Part shown: one piece after another, positions 17,631-43,002 of the stretch
Layout: every line of letters starts with the position of its first letter
How positions within the stretch are numbered: position 1 is the first letter of the stretch
IMG/VR virus record: IMGVR_UViG_3300037246_000419
Location: 1 to 44,881 of that record
Reading direction: 5' to 3' (one strand)
Origin: a virus
Length of the DNA stretch: 44,881 nucleotides
Made by a program: the position numbers and the translations under genes
The notes under the pieces: model-generated
What the model was told of the DNA's origin: nothing
Database searches by the model: none
What the model saw: only the letters and a program-made list of their open reading frames with translations

Positions 17631-17984
17631 ATGAAGAGTTTTATCGTAGCAGTTTTGGCAGTAATGGTAATGGCAACTGGAGCAATGGCAGCAGATAGGG
17701 AAATTTACCTTGAGGCTACCCACGACATAGATGTGAGTAACCCTGAGTTCAGTACTTCTGACATCGACCTGAAGGCCGTAGCAAGGTTTTCTATCTGGAA
17801 GGGACTCGGTATAGACTCAAGTGTTTCAGGCTCACTAGCGCGGTCTTACGAGAACGCTGTAGTGACTGTAGGCCCACGTTATGTTAGTGGTGACTTCGAG
17901 GCTTCTCTTACTACGTCCTTTGCCGTAGATAGTACTAGTGACTTTGGTGATAATGCAGTAGCAAGAGTTAGATATAACTTCTAA
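17631..17984 (+). CDS. Exported beta-barrel-like outer membrane protein
   Basis: A 117-residue protein with a clear Sec signal peptide (MKSFIVAVLAVMVMATGAMA, cleavage after AMA). The mature 97 residues alternate hydrophobic and polar positions in about six strands and end in ...VRYNF, the terminal aromatic signal recognised by the BAM complex. This predicts a small outer-membrane barrel made in the infected cell. Roles such as superinfection exclusion or surface change are possible. RBS AGGAGATACAA. Confidence 0.65.
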   Translation: MKSFIVAVLAVMVMATGAMAADREIYLEATHDIDVSNPEFSTSDIDLKAVARFSIWKGLGIDSSVSGSLARSYENAVVTVGPRYVSGDFEASLTTSFAVDSTSDFGDNAVARVRYNF

Positions 17985-17998
17985 GTAAGGAGAAGACG

Positions 17999-18469
17999 AT
18001 GAGGAAATACATAAAATTTATTACGCTTGGGTTGATATTGGTTTTCTTGTCGTCTTTTTCTTATGCGGCAGATGATACCTTCCGTGGAGTAAGAGCAAAA
18101 ACTAGAGCATATATCGGTGCTATAGATGAGTCAAATGGTGAAGTTAGAATGGCTAAAGCTACTCCCGATGGTTACATAGGAGTTTCTGCGTTACCGTCTG
18201 CCGATTCTTTTGTTAATGTAACCACAGCTACAGATACCGATATTTGTCAGTCCGGTTGTACTATACTTAGAGTAATTATAGGTTTAGGGGATGCTGGCAC
18301 TTCGGTAGCTTTATACAACGACGCAGATGGAACATGTAGTTCTGGTTTGATTACTACGATAGATACAGCTACCGCAGGAGTTGTAGGAATAGGTCTTAGA
18401 ACTTCTATAGGACTCTGTATGACAAGTACAGGACATGACACAGGAAACGTAACGGTGATATACAAATGA
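17999..18469 (+). CDS. Exported protein with virion-type beta domain
   Basis: A 156-residue protein with a Sec signal peptide (residues 1-23, ending FSYA). The mature part contains TILRVIIGLGDAGTSVALYND, similar to a small beta domain common in phage decoration and fibre proteins, plus two Cys pairs (CQSGC, CSSGL...GLCM) that could form disulfides in the periplasm. Having a signal peptide is unusual for a virion protein. RBS AAGGAGAAG. Confidence 0.65.
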   Translation: MRKYIKFITLGLILVFLSSFSYAADDTFRGVRAKTRAYIGAIDESNGEVRMAKATPDGYIGVSALPSADSFVNVTTATDTDICQSGCTILRVIIGLGDAGTSVALYNDADGTCSSGLITTIDTATAGVVGIGLRTSIGLCMTSTGHDTGNVTVIYK

Positions 18470-27423: not shown

Positions 27424-27521
27424 GACCACGCTCCTCTGTGACTCCAAAAGACAAGATAGCTTGTTGAATATCTAGCTTCTATTGGGAGCTTAAAACATCC
27501 TGCACTAATATAATTCTTCAT
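27420..27521 (-). CDS. 33-residue microprotein
   Basis: Begins MKNYISAGCFKLPIEARYST and ends WSHRGAWS. ATG overlaps the stop of the HNH-AP2 gene (ATGA) and GGGGGGCT is directly upstream. No family recognised; overlap and ribosome site are the evidence. Confidence 0.5.
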   Translation of the reverse strand: MKNYISAGCFKLPIEARYSTSYLVFWSHRGAWS

Positions 27522-27997
27522 AGCCCCCCTTTTATCTCATTCAGGCAAGCGAATTCTCCATGATATTCAATGGCTGCTTTATTGTAAATCCTCGCTGCTT
27601 CATGCTTACAATCATAGCGTCCCAAATGAAGTCTTTGACCAGAAATGCAAATCTGCACTTGCCACTTACCGTCCGTATGCCAACTCACACCCTTATAGCC
27701 TGACTTATTATTGCTTTGCTTTGTTTTATTTCTACAGTTTTCCACTCTATTACAAAGACGAAGATTGCATTTCCTATTGTCTAGTGTATCTCTATTTATA
27801 TGGTCAACCTCTAGTCCTCTTGGTGCATCCAAAATGATTCTATGCATCAATATAACTTCCCGCTTACCCTTTCCTCTCGGCCCATTCCTCCTTGCATCTC
27901 CCTTAGCATTATAATGCCATTTAAACTTATCTAGTCTTTCAAAATCTTCATCATCGACCAATGCTACTTTACCTTGCGTAAGCTGGATTTCTTTCAT
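27518..27997 (-). CDS. HNH homing endonuclease with AP2 DNA-binding domain
   Basis: A 159-residue free-standing homing endonuclease. The HNH core includes LMHRIILDAPRGLEVDHINRDTLDNRK and NLRLCNRVENCRNK; the C-terminal AP2-type DNA-binding domain is SGYKGVSWHTDGKWQVQI to LHLGRYD and ends with IEYHGEFACLNEI. It shares N-terminus MKEIQLTQGKVALVDDEDFE with the paralogue at 42544. Selfish elements of this type insert between genes and cut sites lacking them. Confidence 0.9.
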   Translation of the reverse strand: MKEIQLTQGKVALVDDEDFERLDKFKWHYNAKGDARRNGPRGKGKREVILMHRIILDAPRGLEVDHINRDTLDNRKCNLRLCNRVENCRNKTKQSNNKSGYKGVSWHTDGKWQVQICISGQRLHLGRYDCKHEAARIYNKAAIEYHGEFACLNEIKGGL

Positions 27998-28818: not shown

Positions 28819-30141
28819 TTAGTCATACCTCTTCTCTAGGTTATCGAACCGTATATACTCAGCAGTCCACCTTAACTCTACCGAGCCAGTTGCTCCATTT
28901 CTATGTTTTTCGACCATTACTTCTGCTATGCCGGGTTTTTTGCTCTCATGTTTAGTATAATATTCATCCCTGAACACAAACATAATTACATCCGCATCTT
29001 GCTCTAAGGCTCCTGACTCCCTCAAATCTGACAACATAGGCTTATGGTCGCCTCCTCTTGTTTCCACCGCCCTAGAGAGCTGTGAGACGGCTACAACAGG
29101 AATCTCTAACTCTATCGCTAAGGCTTTCAGGTTGCCGGAGATGATTTCAAGCTCTTGGTTACGTGATATGCCTCTAATATTCTCTCTCATCAACTGCAAG
29201 TGGTCGATAAAAATAATATCCAGCCCGCCGTCTACTTTCATCTTTCTGGCTTGTCGGCAAATATTAATCGAACTTCTGGAAGAATCGTCTATCCGTATTG
29301 ATGAATTATAGATGTGATTACCAAACGTAGTCATTTTGGCATAGTCGGTGTCTTCTAGCTTCCCATCCCTAAATCTTGTGGTGTCTATCTTTGTCTGGTT
29401 AGCGCACATATTCTTAACCAACTGCTTCCGTCCTACTTCGATAGAGAATATACCTACTCGCTTTCCCTGAAAAGCTATATTTAAAGCTATCTGCACAGAT
29501 AATGCAGTCTTTCCCATTGACGGTCTACCAGCAATCAAGATAAGGTCGGTATCCTGAAAACCGCCCAAGACGCTATCCAGAACGCTCAAACCAGTAGTTA
29601 TACCTGTTGGGCTACCTTTCCGTCTCTCAAAGTCTGCCTCAACGTCTTTCAGCAGGTCACTTGCCTCACTGTATGTCTGGCTTACCATATGGTTTGACCG
29701 AATAAACCCTTGTTGGGCTAAGTTTATTAACTCATCTGCTGTGTGATTAACCGAGTAAGCGTTGTCTATAAGGCTTTTAGCTTGGTGTATTAAATGCCTT
29801 CGGATTGACTTATCACGGACTATCCCCGCATAATACTCAATATTCGTAGCACTCGGAGTTATCTCGGTCAATACACCTATATACCCTAACCCACCAACAG
29901 GCTTTAAGTCTTTTTCATCAACAATATCCGAAACCGTTATAATATCAATAGGCTTTCTTCTGTGATAGAGGTCACAGAACGTGCTGAATAAAACTTGGTG
30001 GGCTTTGGAGTGAAAAGCCCTGCCATCAGGAGATAGAATATCCAACGCTCGGTCTATTGAGCTATTGTCCATCAAGATGCTTCCAAGAACAGATTGCTCA
30101 GCTTCTTGGTTGTACGGTAGTTCCTTTATCTCTGCATTCAT
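28819..30141 (-). CDS. dnaB: Replicative DNA helicase, DnaB family
   Basis: A 440-residue helicase. N-terminal domain residues 10-115 (NQEAEQSVLGSILMD), linker, and RecA-like C-terminal domain with Walker A GRPSMGKTA (205-213), catalytic Glu in SIEVGRKQ, Walker B LDIIFIDHLQLM (307-318), and SQLSRAVE and DLRESGALEQDADVIMFVFR motifs. It unwinds DNA at the phage fork, probably loaded by the upstream organiser protein; no phage polymerase is seen, so host polymerase must be used. Confidence 0.96.
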   Translation of the reverse strand: MNAEIKELPYNQEAEQSVLGSILMDNSSIDRALDILSPDGRAFHSKAHQVLFSTFCDLYHRRKPIDIITVSDIVDEKDLKPVGGLGYIGVLTEITPSATNIEYYAGIVRDKSIRRHLIHQAKSLIDNAYSVNHTADELINLAQQGFIRSNHMVSQTYSEASDLLKDVEADFERRKGSPTGITTGLSVLDSVLGGFQDTDLILIAGRPSMGKTALSVQIALNIAFQGKRVGIFSIEVGRKQLVKNMCANQTKIDTTRFRDGKLEDTDYAKMTTFGNHIYNSSIRIDDSSRSSINICRQARKMKVDGGLDIIFIDHLQLMRENIRGISRNQELEIISGNLKALAIELEIPVVAVSQLSRAVETRGGDHKPMLSDLRESGALEQDADVIMFVFRDEYYTKHESKKPGIAEVMVEKHRNGATGSVELRWTAEYIRFDNLEKRYD

Positions 30142-30889
30142 CGCATTTCCCTCCGAAGATACTTATATATTCTGTAGTGCCACATACCTTACATGGCTGT
30201 TTAGTTGTAGGTATAGGGCTTGTGCCGTTACCACCTTGTTTATTTTCAGACCACTTTAGTATTGCGTGGTAGTGGGATGTGTAACCATAATTCTTAAGCA
30301 TCATGCCGTTAGATAAAGTCTCTACCCACTCTTTAGCTCCAGCTTCTCCAAATTTCTTTTTTAGACTTTCTTTTTCTTTATCTGTGAGTAATACATTTTT
30401 ATTTGTGCCATATTTCTTTTTTTTCTGTTTTCCTGTCTCTTCTTCTGTTCCTGCTTCTGTTTCTGTTTCTGGTTTCAAAAGGACTAAGTTTAGGCTATTC
30501 ACAAGCTCTTTAGCAAGTCCTTCGTAAGTATCTAAAAAGACTTGTATAAGTTGTGTTCTTGGTAGGTTGTTTAGTAACTTAACTGCTGCCTTCTTCTGGT
30601 TTGGGTTCGTTATAGGATTGTGTCTCAAAAAGTTGACGATAAAGAGAACCTTTAAGGTCTTGTCGTATTGGATAAGCTCACTATCACAGAGAGCTTTTAA
30701 GTCTTTACCGAAGTCTTTATTTGAGATATTCAAATCTTCACAGGCATAACCAGCTTTAAGGACATACATTCCCACCAAGTTGTTATGTGGTGAAGTTAAG
30801 ACATAGAAGAATAACCTCTGTTGCATCGGGGTTAAGGCTATAAACTTTTCATCATTCCAGATTTTAGATTCTATTTTCTGGTATCTCAT
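30098..30889 (-). CDS. Replication organiser / helicase loader-like protein
   Basis: A 263-residue protein overlapping dnaB. Residues 1-105 form a winged-helix-like N-terminal region (KIESKIWNDEKFIALTPMQQRLFFYVLTS) typical of phage replication initiators; a Lys/Glu-rich linker follows, and the C-terminus has CKVCGTTEYISIFGGKCDEC, a zinc finger. It probably binds the origin and recruits DnaB. ATGA overlap with the nuclease gene upstream. Confidence 0.8.
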   Translation of the reverse strand: MRYQKIESKIWNDEKFIALTPMQQRLFFYVLTSPHNNLVGMYVLKAGYACEDLNISNKDFGKDLKALCDSELIQYDKTLKVLFIVNFLRHNPITNPNQKKAAVKLLNNLPRTQLIQVFLDTYEGLAKELVNSLNLVLLKPETETEAGTEEETGKQKKKKYGTNKNVLLTDKEKESLKKKFGEAGAKEWVETLSNGMMLKNYGYTSHYHAILKWSENKQGGNGTSPIPTTKQPCKVCGTTEYISIFGGKCDECRDKGTTVQPRS

Positions 30890-31464
30890 AATATTTTAGA
30901 CCAATCCTCTTTCCGAGCTTTTTTAAAACTTCTTATATACTTTGGAAAGAAACTTTCTTTCAGTCTCTCTAAGGATTTAAAGTTTTCATCTGTATTAATC
31001 CATCCAGAAGATTCTTCAAAAGAGATTCCGTTTTTCAGGTTAAAATCAAAGTGCCAACACTTAACCCATTTTATTTGGTCTATGGCAAAACAAATATCTC
31101 CCGAAGCATAATCTTTACCTATAAGAATACCCTTTACTTTGATATTTTCATAAGTAGACCAGCGTTGTTTTTCTCTGATAGACAGGAATCTTTCAACTCC
31201 CCTTTTATACCTGCATAATTGGCCTAATGCCGTAAAGTCAATAAGCCCCTTTTTTAATTCAACAATAGTTATTGTGACATCTGGGTATTGTTCGTGTTTG
31301 TTTGGTGAGTAACTAGGTTCTATTTCGACATATAGTAAATCGATTATTCCATATCCATCTAAATTTACTTGCCTAAAGCACTTGCCGTAAATCTCTAAAG
31401 GGTTCTTGCCTGTTTTTAAAGCAAACAAATAATCTTCTAGTTCTTTCTCGCTAATCTCAGCCAT
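30886..31464 (-). CDS. PD-(D/E)XK nuclease
   Basis: A 192-residue nuclease; start at ATG 31464 after AAAGGAGGTTGGTA. Catalytic layout visible: helix SEKELEDYL, Asp42 in GIIDLLYV, Glu69-x-Lys71 in TITIVELKKG, and Gln82 in LGQLCRYKRG: the E-D-ExK-Q signature of the NucS/RecB-type superfamily. First gene of the replication set, preceded by a structured RNA and a promoter, so expression may be controlled. Could process branched DNA or host DNA; target unknown. Confidence 0.82.
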   Translation of the reverse strand: MAEISEKELEDYLFALKTGKNPLEIYGKCFRQVNLDGYGIIDLLYVEIEPSYSPNKHEQYPDVTITIVELKKGLIDFTALGQLCRYKRGVERFLSIREKQRWSTYENIKVKGILIGKDYASGDICFAIDQIKWVKCWHFDFNLKNGISFEESSGWINTDENFKSLERLKESFFPKYIRSFKKARKEDWSKIL

Positions 31465-31589
31465 TACCAACCTCCTTTAAACGCACAAAAGCCCCTGCAA
31501 GGTGGGAAGACAGGTACAATGCAACCTGACCCAGAGCGAACTGGCCTTACAGAGGCTTTTGTAAATTCAAATGTGATTGGGTGTTTCAT
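31464..31589 (-). CDS. 41-residue ORF overlapping a structured RNA
   Basis: Reads MKHPITFEFTKASVRPVRSG then SGCIVPVFPPCRGFCAFKGGW. ATG is preceded by AGAGGAGCTAAACA and its stop shares a base with the next start. However most codons lie within a very stable stem-loop structure on the same strand (31485-31562), so either this is a leader peptide of a regulatory RNA or the coding capacity is secondary. Confidence 0.45.
   Translation of the reverse strand: MKHPITFEFTKASVRPVRSGSGCIVPVFPPCRGFCAFKGGW
31485..31562 (-). ncRNA. Three-way-junction structured RNA candidate
   Basis: On the minus strand, outer helix P1 is 18 bp (31545-31562 with 31485-31502). On that strand it has no mismatch, only two G-U pairs; on the plus strand these become C-A mismatches, so RNA pairing favours the minus strand. 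Inside are hairpin P2 (CCAG/CUGG, loop UUCGCU; 31531-31544), a 2-base linker, hairpin P3 (CAGGU/ACCUG, loop UGCAUUGU; 31511-31528) and an 8-base linker UCUUCCCA. The linker's CCCA could pair with UGGG of P2 as an alternative fold. It lies about 60 bases after a predicted start site and just before the ribosome site of the nuclease gene. Confidence 0.65.
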
Positions 31590-31631
31590 TGTTTAGCTCC
31601 TCTTCCCAAAGGATTAAGTTGTTAAGGTTCT

Positions 31632-31660
31632 AGTATACGCTCGTTATCAGGGAAAGTCAA
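31632..31660 (-). promoter_or_regulatory. Sigma70-type promoter
   Basis: TTGACT (-35, 31655-31660) and TATACT (-10, 31632-31637) are separated by exactly 17 bases on the minus strand. Each box differs from the consensus at one position. It would start transcription near 31625, upstream of the structured RNA, nuclease, replication organiser and dnaB genes. Confidence 0.75.
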
Positions 31661-32253: not shown

Positions 32254-32610
32254 CTAAGTTTTTGCTGTACTCCATGATGGTGCGCCTGGTAGAGTGTCAA
32301 AAACTTTGTCTTCATCTGGGGTTTTTTCCACACACGCCGTTGGATTTAGCTCTGGTATCATATCCCTATTCCCTCTTTCCTCTGAGTCATTCACTATGAA
32401 CGGATTGCCCAGACCACTTAACAGCCAGTCCATAGACATGCCATACTTATTAGCTATCTGGAGGACTACTCCTAGAGGCATAAGACCGCGTTTTTTATAG
32501 TTAGAGAATGCCTGCGGGGTTAGTTCGAGCTTTTCCGCCACCTTGGATACGTTCTTTAGACCCGTCCCAAAGAGTATATGTTTCATTACTTCCTCAAAGT
32601 TGTTGTTCAT
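32254..32610 (-). CDS. CI-type HTH transcription regulator
   Basis: A 118-residue protein whose residues 15-70 match the phage CI-repressor HTH domain: VSKVAEKLELTPQAFSNYKKRG, then VLQIANKYGMSMDWLLSGLGNPF. The C-terminal 45 residues are polar and disordered, lacking an S24 peptidase domain, so it would not self-cleave. It is inside the early operon, not divergent from it, and no integrase is present, so it may act as a Cro-like switch. Confidence 0.85.
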   Translation of the reverse strand: MNNNFEEVMKHILFGTGLKNVSKVAEKLELTPQAFSNYKKRGLMPLGVVLQIANKYGMSMDWLLSGLGNPFIVNDSEERGNRDMIPELNPTACVEKTPDEDKVFDTLPGAPSWSTAKT

Positions 32611-38883: not shown

Positions 38884-39306
38884 TTAGCTGTTCCCTCTTT
38901 TGGGTTGAGTAAGGGCACGTTCTAAATCCCAACCCATATTAAGTCTGCCAAACAAAAGATTTGTAGTTATATTGTACTCTCTTGCCCATTCCGAAACTGA
39001 TTGAGTTTTATTGTCGAAAGTTATTAGTCGTCTATTGCGCTTACTTAATATTTGTTCTTTTTGCGTAGCCCATTTACAGTTTGATGGTTCGTAGTTGCCA
39101 TTACTATCTATTCGTTCGATTGATAAGCCTTCTGGCGGTTCACCCATATCGGTAATGAAGTTTTCGAGAGATAACCAGCGTTCACAAACCTTTATACCTC
39201 TGCCACCGTAATATTCCCAACTAGCGTGATTAGGGTTTGAACATCTATAAATCATGCCATACCAGATACTGTAAGCTTTAGTTCGTGATTTACCGTGATT
39301 CTTCAT
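38884..39306 (-). CDS. HNH endonuclease with HTH tail
   Basis: A 140-residue protein of the free-standing HNH type: YSIWYGMIYRCSNPNHASWEYYGGRGIKVCERW, SIERIDSNGNYEPSNCKWATQKEQ, then a C-terminal SVSEWAREYNITTNLLFGRL, a helix-turn-helix like those of NUMOD/IENR modules. Third such selfish-type nuclease in the genome. ATGA overlap with the excisionase-like gene upstream. Confidence 0.85.
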   Translation of the reverse strand: MKNHGKSRTKAYSIWYGMIYRCSNPNHASWEYYGGRGIKVCERWLSLENFITDMGEPPEGLSIERIDSNGNYEPSNCKWATQKEQILSKRNRRLITFDNKTQSVSEWAREYNITTNLLFGRLNMGWDLERALTQPKRGNS

Positions 39307-42444: not shown

Positions 42445-42572
42445 TGTGCGAGGTTTGTGAGTTGATGTGGTTTATATCATGTCCTAGTCTTTTGCATAAG
42501 GATTACTGGTCTAAATACAGAATGGGTCAGTTTAGGGGGAGTCGTGAAGGAGATACAGCTAACTCAAGGTAA
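42444..42572 (+). CDS. 42-residue Cys protein
   Basis: Begins MCEVCELMWFISCPSLLHKD; CxxC at residues 2-5 and a later Cys. ATG shares one base with the preceding stop. The 3' end overlaps the HNH-AP2 start by 29 bases, suggesting truncation by that insertion. Confidence 0.5.
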   Translation: MCEVCELMWFISCPSLLHKDYWSKYRMGQFRGSREGDTANSR

Positions 42573-43002
42573 GGTGGCTATAGTTGATGACGAAGACTTT
42601 GAGTACCTCAACCGATGGACTTGGCATTATTGCACTGGGTATGCCAAAAGAATAATTGATATTAACGGTAAACGGAAAAGAATACGGATGCATAGGGCCG
42701 TTTTGGATACCCCAGATGGCATAGAGACAGACCATATAAATCGTAATAAATTAGATAACAGAAAAGAAAACTTAAGATATTGTACTCGTGCTGAGAATAT
42801 GAGGAATGTCTGCACAAGAGGCAATAATCTATCGGGATATAAGGGAGTTGGTTGGAATCTTGGTAAATGGCGTTCAAGAATAACAATCGATGGTAAACGA
42901 ATATGTTTGGGACGCTTCGTGAATGTTAAGGATGCAGCACAAGCTTATAATAAATCAGCAAAAGAGCATTATGGCGAATTCGCTTACTTGAATAAGCTTT
43001 GA
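42544..43002 (+). CDS. HNH homing endonuclease with AP2 domain
   Basis: A 152-residue paralogue of the 27518 enzyme, in GTG start form. HNH core MHRAVLDTPDGIETDHINRNKLDNRKENLRYCTRAENMRN and AP2 domain LSGYKGVGWNLGKWRSRI to LGRFVNVKDAAQAYNK. Site-specific, selfish, lies just upstream of the packaging genes. Confidence 0.9.
   Translation: MKEIQLTQGKVAIVDDEDFEYLNRWTWHYCTGYAKRIIDINGKRKRIRMHRAVLDTPDGIETDHINRNKLDNRKENLRYCTRAENMRNVCTRGNNLSGYKGVGWNLGKWRSRITIDGKRICLGRFVNVKDAAQAYNKSAKEHYGEFAYLNKL

Follow-up and report, generated by a model that had tools for sequence, protein, structure and literature searches.

Genes and features of the locus

The window analysed here is a 44.9-kb uncultivated virus contig from IMG/VR, taken at its full length. 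Its minus strand carries an operon in which genes for a nuclease, a DnaD-like loader and a DnaB helicase follow one another, and a structured RNA lies between a promoter-like site and the nuclease gene. The features of this region, in the direction of transcription, are as follows:

32254-32610, minus strand: CI-type helix-turn-helix repressor, upstream of the RNA (Pfam Phage_CI_repr, E 5e-7)
31632-31660, minus strand: sigma70-type promoter-like site TTGACT-17-TATACT (consensus scan, 10 of 12 bases; a consensus match only)
31601-31608, minus strand: target half a1, UGGGAAGA, complementary to a' and overlapping the Shine-Dalgarno sequence of the 41-codon frame
31587-31592, minus strand: target half b1, ACAAUG, complementary to b', 8 nt after a1 and containing the AUG of the 41-codon frame
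31464-31589, minus strand: 41-codon reading frame that runs through the entire RNA, its UAA overlapping the nuclease AUG (UAAUG)
31563-31580, minus strand: 5' side of the outer arm, predicted by folding to pair with the nuclease ribosome site
31485-31562, minus strand: core of the putative C4/CI-type RNA, with stem P1 of 18 bp (31562-31545 / 31502-31485) (fold, covariance model and descriptor scan)
31531-31544, minus strand: P2 hairpin CCAG-UUCGCU-CUGG (fold; a UUCG-type loop also occurs in phage P1 C4)
31511-31528, minus strand: P3 hairpin CAGGU-UGCAUUGU-ACCUG (fold), with b' (CAUUGU, 31521-31516) in its loop
31503-31510, minus strand: a', the 3' junction linker UCUUCCCA (fold and target complementarity)
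31467-31484, minus strand: 3' side of the outer arm (fold), holding the nuclease Shine-Dalgarno sequence AAAGGAGG (31478-31471)
30886-31464, minus strand: PD-(D/E)XK-type nuclease of 192 aa, the first long gene of the operon, with conserved D42, E69xK71 and Q82xxxY86
30098-30889, minus strand: DnaD-like helicase loader or replication initiator (profile match)
28819-30141, minus strand: DnaB-like replicative helicase (profile matches)

The promoter-like site corresponds to the good promoter that an earlier note on this DNA had placed ahead of the RNA. The nuclease matches no family in Pfam or PHROG and nothing convincing in PDB and, as judged from sequence, is one of an unnamed family of replication-operon nucleases in phages. 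The CI-type repressor gene ahead of the RNA is suggestive of an immunity region, and the phage is perhaps temperate, although the scanned window ORFs showed no integrase.

Between the repressor gene and the RNA lies a tRNA-Leu-like stretch (32212-32113, minus strand) with a 7-bp acceptor stem (GTTCTGG/CCAGAAC), a D-arm (GCGGAATAGGTAGACGC), a long variable arm and a T-arm (CAGGGTGCAAATCCCTG). It folds into a near-cloverleaf whose anticodon arm is weak and lacks U33, no tRNA is reported there by ARAGORN or Rfam, and it may be a tRNA that has degenerated or else an attachment site. The window also holds three HNH endonuclease genes (27518-27997, 38884-39306 and 42544-43002), two of which are best matched by phrog_99, a shared match that suggests repeated homing-type insertions.

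The leader RNA forms a long-stemmed three-way junction

The minus-strand RNA from 31562 to 31485 (78 nt) folds, as the earlier note had described, into a stem of 18 uninterrupted pairs, including two G-U pairs, that encloses two hairpins. Refolding gave a minimum free energy of -39.2 kcal/mol (z -6.0), a stability that none of 200 shuffled sequences attained, whereas the plus strand of the same segment is less stable (-28.8, z -3.2), and the proposal of a functional RNA in the transcribed direction is therefore well supported. When 4,714 segments of 114 nt from both strands were ranked by G+C-corrected stability, the RNA came first (z -4.9 versus -3.7 for the next), and it is also more stable than synonymous recodings of its 41-codon frame (z -4.6). 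The runner-up for G+C-corrected stability in the window is at 17956-18088 on the plus strand (-34.7 kcal/mol at 37% G+C).

The element does precede the nuclease ribosome site, as had been claimed, but its stem is longer than claimed and reaches over AAAGGAGG. The full stem has 36-nt arms (31580-31545 / 31502-31467) interrupted by symmetric 1x1 and 3x3 internal loops, and its outer arms (31580-31563 / 31484-31467) contribute 13 further pairs in two blocks that engage the nuclease Shine-Dalgarno sequence.

The RNA resembles C4 of phage P1 and CI of phage P4

C4 of phage P1 is an RNA of three stems and about 77 nt that is cut from a longer RNA and whose b' covers ribosome sites (PMC5320573). The CI RNA of satellite phage P4 is cut from a leader and terminates transcription of the replication genes prematurely by pairing with seqA and seqC (PMC4825925). 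A covariance model built only from these two RNAs (R1) finds the held-out window RNA over its full length (31561-31486) at 27.8 bits with an E-value of 0.0017, which is rough because the model rests on two sequences, and the next best match in the window scores 10 bits. Phage P1 C4, P4 CI and the window RNA align over 76 columns with, end gaps aside, one internal 2-nt gap. The P1 helix is 98% paired in this three-sequence alignment, as compared to 40-54% in slid registers, and 13 of its 17 pairs are changed on both sides. An architecture descriptor specifying a long stem with a 32-55-nt interior of exactly two hairpins was run blind on 1.02 Mb (both strands) and returned seven matches, namely P4 CI, phage P1 C4, the window RNA, both strands of the related locus L096 described below, Cellulophaga phage Nekkels_1 and one AT-rich hairpin, as compared to three weak matches in shuffled sequence. 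With the window RNA included, a model (R2) picks up C4-like RNAs from gammaproteobacterial genomes, and one of these RNAs precedes an AntA antirepressor gene. Three C4-like RNAs found with R2 lie in a single gammaproteobacterial genome, G1233 (L119, L125 and L126).

The Rfam C4 model (RF01695) scores phage P1 at 68.8 bits and P4 at 74.9 bits as positive controls, leaves the window RNA unmatched at E <= 10 and also misses the L096 RNA; for that reason, the lineage of these two RNAs lies outside the public model. The Rfam search suggested in the earlier note returns chance microRNA hairpin matches only (best E 0.0077), and no Rfam riboswitch covariance model matches the window RNA up to E 10. 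The verdict in that note that the RNA belongs to no known class consequently holds for the Rfam models, whereas the architecture, the target layout and the match of the held-out model all point to the type of phage P1 C4 and P4 CI.

One criterion for C4 RNAs is that RNase P cuts at a GGW motif at the 5' end of the P1 stem. The window RNA shares with them three stems within about 77 nt, the match to the held-out model, an upstream a1-(7-9 nt)-b1 target and a place in an operon leader, but it stays below the RF01695 gathering threshold, has no downstream a2/b2 (seqC) and reads AUUUACAAAAGCC, without GGW, at the 5' end of P1.

A two-part target lies upstream in the same transcript

The single-stranded parts of the RNA have partners in their own leader, as the b' sequence in the P3 loop and the a' sequence in the 3' linker are exactly complementary to UGGGAAGA-8nt-ACAAUG, which lies upstream in the same transcript. 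With the linker and P3 loop fixed beforehand from phage P1, the two-part complementarity of the window reaches p = 2e-4; phage P1 itself, used as the positive control in the exact bipartite test, gave p = 4.5e-4. The leader copy of the target is the best non-self site genome-wide. Free duplex energies between the leader and P3 plus the linker are weak evidence when taken alone (p 0.05 in the window and 0.17 in L096) because they allow long bulges, and the exact bipartite test is more discriminating. The strong duplex predicted at 36340-36278 was set aside, as contiguous complementarity of at least 9 nt is absent there. The earlier note proposed an alternative fold in which CCCA of the linker pairs with UGGG in P2; such a fold is possible, but an upstream 8-nt sequence is a better partner for the linker UCUUCCCA as a whole. 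An exact copy of a second target (a2/b2) is absent from the nuclease ribosome site and from the sequence downstream; by eye, only a bulged, G-U-containing pairing resembling a2/b2 can be drawn at the ribosome site.

These complementarities, together with the interior hairpins, are left unexplained if the element is a leader terminator, an attenuator or a processing site (e.g. for RNase III) of the nuclease-replication operon. Such a role would fit the A-rich 5' and U-rich 3' flanks of the stem (ACAAAAGCC...GGCUUUUGU), and a long near-perfect duplex suits RNase III. Against termination, the consensus scan shows no terminator-like site (G+C-rich hairpin followed by a T-run), and the U-run is short and lies within the stem. 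We regard this explanation as decidedly improbable.

A related locus keeps the structure and rewrites the sequence

Searches of phages, plasmids and IMG/VR with DNA and protein sequences found no close relatives for a covariation analysis, and an exact stem pattern search in IMG/VR gave no match, so that one sequence carries the case for the window lineage. The nearest nuclease homologue found (38% identity) is encoded by L096, a 5.2-kb contig binned as Omnitrophota. Directly before this nuclease gene, L096 has a 24-bp stem, two hairpins and an 8-nt 3' linker that differ in sequence from those of the window. Reading the sequence directly, the frame corresponding to the 41-codon frame is broken by a stop, which indicates that the structure and not the peptide is conserved. 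The earlier note would have counted a lack of covariation and a stem lost where the frame is kept against the RNA; L096 instead keeps the stem in new sequence and has the frame stopped. The 3' linker and P3 loop of L096 are exactly complementary to two words of its own upstream leader that are 8 nt apart (p = 0.0036), and its RNA is the top match of R1 on that contig (14.6 bits, E 0.078). MAFFT gave no structural alignment of the L096 RNA. This comparative evidence argues that the window RNA is real.

The same locus bears on three other explanations. The long inverted repeat is what would be expected of a palindromic mobile element that inserted here and does nothing for the phage, but the window has no second copy of the element and shows no target duplication, and L096 carries the same architecture in different sequence at the same place before the nuclease gene, making this the least credible of the explanations considered. 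A metabolite riboswitch, or an aptamer of some other unknown class, would account for a three-way junction in a leader beside a ribosome site. We think this very unlikely, given the Rfam riboswitch result above. An aptamer core would be expected to keep its sequence, but the interior differs in L096, and the single-stranded parts find their complements in the leader of their own locus. Among the roles offered in the earlier note, that of a regulatory RNA stands, and neither a riboswitch nor classical antitermination has positive support.

The third explanation is purely cis-acting, with the stem closing the nuclease ribosome site and translation of the 41 codons opening it by coupling; no RNA would then act in trans, and the likeness to C4 would be convergent or a relic. 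It is favored by the stem that covers AAAGGAGG and by the 41-codon frame, which has a good Shine-Dalgarno sequence, ends at UAAUG and shows ordinary synonymous codon use. The overall coding score of the frame is poor, and its product has no homologue or protein family in Pfam, PHROG or sequence searches. The cis-acting explanation leaves the P2/P3 architecture, the match to the phage P1 and P4 model and the C4-spaced two-part target unaccounted for, and in L096 the Shine-Dalgarno sequence lies outside the stem and the corresponding frame is stopped; it is unlikely to be the whole account.

Our preferred reading, which we consider likely, is that the window RNA is a divergent antisense RNA of the C4/P4-CI type, which would be processed and would repress the replication operon in trans via a1/b1. 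The assignment to this type draws direct support from the fold, from conservation in another phage without conservation of sequence, from the anatomy common to phage P1 C4 and P4 CI and from the upstream two-part target. The RNA is probably a distant relative of the C4/CI family, and it is not filed as a member under Rfam's definition.

Candidate RNAs precede nuclease genes in other phages

Weaker candidate RNAs precede nuclease homologues in three more phages, Nekkels_1, L104 and L103. The Nekkels_1 candidate lies at about 48493-48568 of MT732443, and both its loops are exactly matched upstream, by AUUGGAA and GUCUAAC (p 0.002). The L104 candidate has a target with p 0.002 whose second word is short, and L103 has ACACUAC upstream and again just before the nuclease start (p 0.014 for the repeated target word), a duplicate placed as seqA and seqC are in P4. 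A loose two-word target test over five loci gives a Fisher p of 1e-5, with L103 alone at p 0.80. Because the matched loops in Nekkels_1 and L104 are placed differently from those of C4, common descent is not supported for these two; R1 does not recover the Nekkels_1 RNA, which may belong to a separate branch or have arisen independently.

The gene after the nuclease in L096, L103, L104 and Nekkels_1 resembles DnaD-like or primosomal loaders, and the nuclease adjoins such a loader in the loci where the next gene was checked. The RNA is absent before the nuclease homologues of Vibrio phages, BF1-TP2, PHS3, L098, L099 and L097, so the association of nuclease and RNA is recurrent and not universal. 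A nuclease search of more than a thousand genomes gave very few matches, and prophages therefore yielded no further leaders.

Three divergent Vibrio phages have no C4-like RNA ahead of the nuclease homologue (L015:3933-3960, L016:3858-3890 and L017:3929-3955). What stands there is a small ORF whose identity differs from phage to phage, followed by an A-run and a short G+C hairpin (AAAAAAAGCCCCGC...GAGGC) that lacks a T-run. Hairpins of this kind with an A-run are also present in L098, L107 and L108.

Proposed mechanism and significance

Most likely, by analogy with P4 CI, the window RNA would repress its own replication operon. Transcription from the promoter at 31660 would yield a transcript from which an RNA of about 78 nt is processed, and this RNA would pair in trans with new leader transcripts, a' with a1 and b' with b1, covering the Shine-Dalgarno sequence and start codon of the 41-codon frame and blocking ribosomes. 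With the frame silent, the long stem would stay folded and the nuclease ribosome site closed, and the untranslated leader RNA would be prone to premature termination, so that expression of the replication operon falls. Translation of the frame would conversely unfold the stem, prevent the RNA from forming and hand ribosomes over to the nuclease at UAAUG. We infer from this a double-negative arrangement, in which a silent frame with a closed site is opposed to a translated frame without RNA, and which could act as a self-limiting switch in replication control or in immunity, either of the prophage kind or against superinfection.

To our knowledge, what is known in detail about antisense control of phage immunity comes from very few elements, chiefly C4 of P1/P7 and CI of P4. 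We tentatively propose, with rather less confidence than the assignment of the window RNA itself, that C4/CI-type RNAs extend beyond the P1/P4-like elements of Proteobacteria as a fast-evolving branch invisible to Rfam. This branch might guard nuclease-DnaD-helicase operons across phyla, with loops reprogrammed to their own leader, and serve replication control or superinfection exclusion, not lysogeny only. It would comprise the RNAs of the window, L096, L103, L104 and Nekkels_1, and some of these phages have no reported integrase; passages on Nekkels in PMC8776804 mention none for it. The same machine with rewritten sequence and targets in an unrelated uncultivated phage would mean that the mechanism extends further than the public model can detect. 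Since the target is self-encoded, function could be checked from sequence alone, as changes in the loop must be matched in the leader of each member. Such RNAs would allow phage replication genes to be switched in a programmable way by RNA alone, and the spread of RNA-based phage immunity becomes a directly testable question.

Comparison with known systems

The window RNA and C4 of phage P1 (RF01695) are closely alike in their dimensions, with a P1 stem of 18 bp in the window and 17 bp in C4, a UUCG-type loop on P2 in both (UUCGCU in the window), a P3 loop with b' of 8 and 9 nt, a 3' linker with a' of 8 and 7 nt, and total lengths of 78 and 77 nt, respectively. The upstream target has the same order within one transcript, a1-8 nt-b1 in the window and a1-7 nt-b1 in phage P1, whose record is annotated in the order a1 (7 nt), b1 (8 nt), C4 (77 nt), a2, b2 and then icd-ant. 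They differ in that the Rfam C4 and a1b1 (RF03163) models do not match the window, C4 has the GGW cleavage motif that the window RNA lacks, and phage P1 has a2/b2 downstream of C4 whereas the window has no exact copy. The genes downstream are icd-ant in phage P1 and those for the nuclease, DnaD-like loader and DnaB in the window, and the window RNA, unlike C4, lies inside an open frame and has an extended stem that covers the next ribosome site.

The IsrK RNA of Gifsy-1 (RF01394) is a prophage leader RNA that acts on its own operon (PMC4825925), as we propose for the window RNA. Its model matches the a1b1 region in phages P1 and P4 and leaves the window unmatched, and IsrK is the counterpart of the target region upstream of a C4-like RNA, not of the three-stem RNA itself.

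The CI RNA of P4, which also belongs to RF01695, has the architecture seen in the window and likewise lies in the leader of a replication operon, which encodes the alpha primase in P4 and the DnaD-like loader and DnaB in the window. In P4, a second target (seqC) is found downstream, at the ribosome site that follows, a position at which the window has no exact one. An annotated frame overlaps the CI RNA, just as the window RNA lies within a frame, and the upstream target of CI, GUGAGAA-9 nt-UUCACAGG, is complementary to its 3' linker and P3, the layout that is found again in the window.
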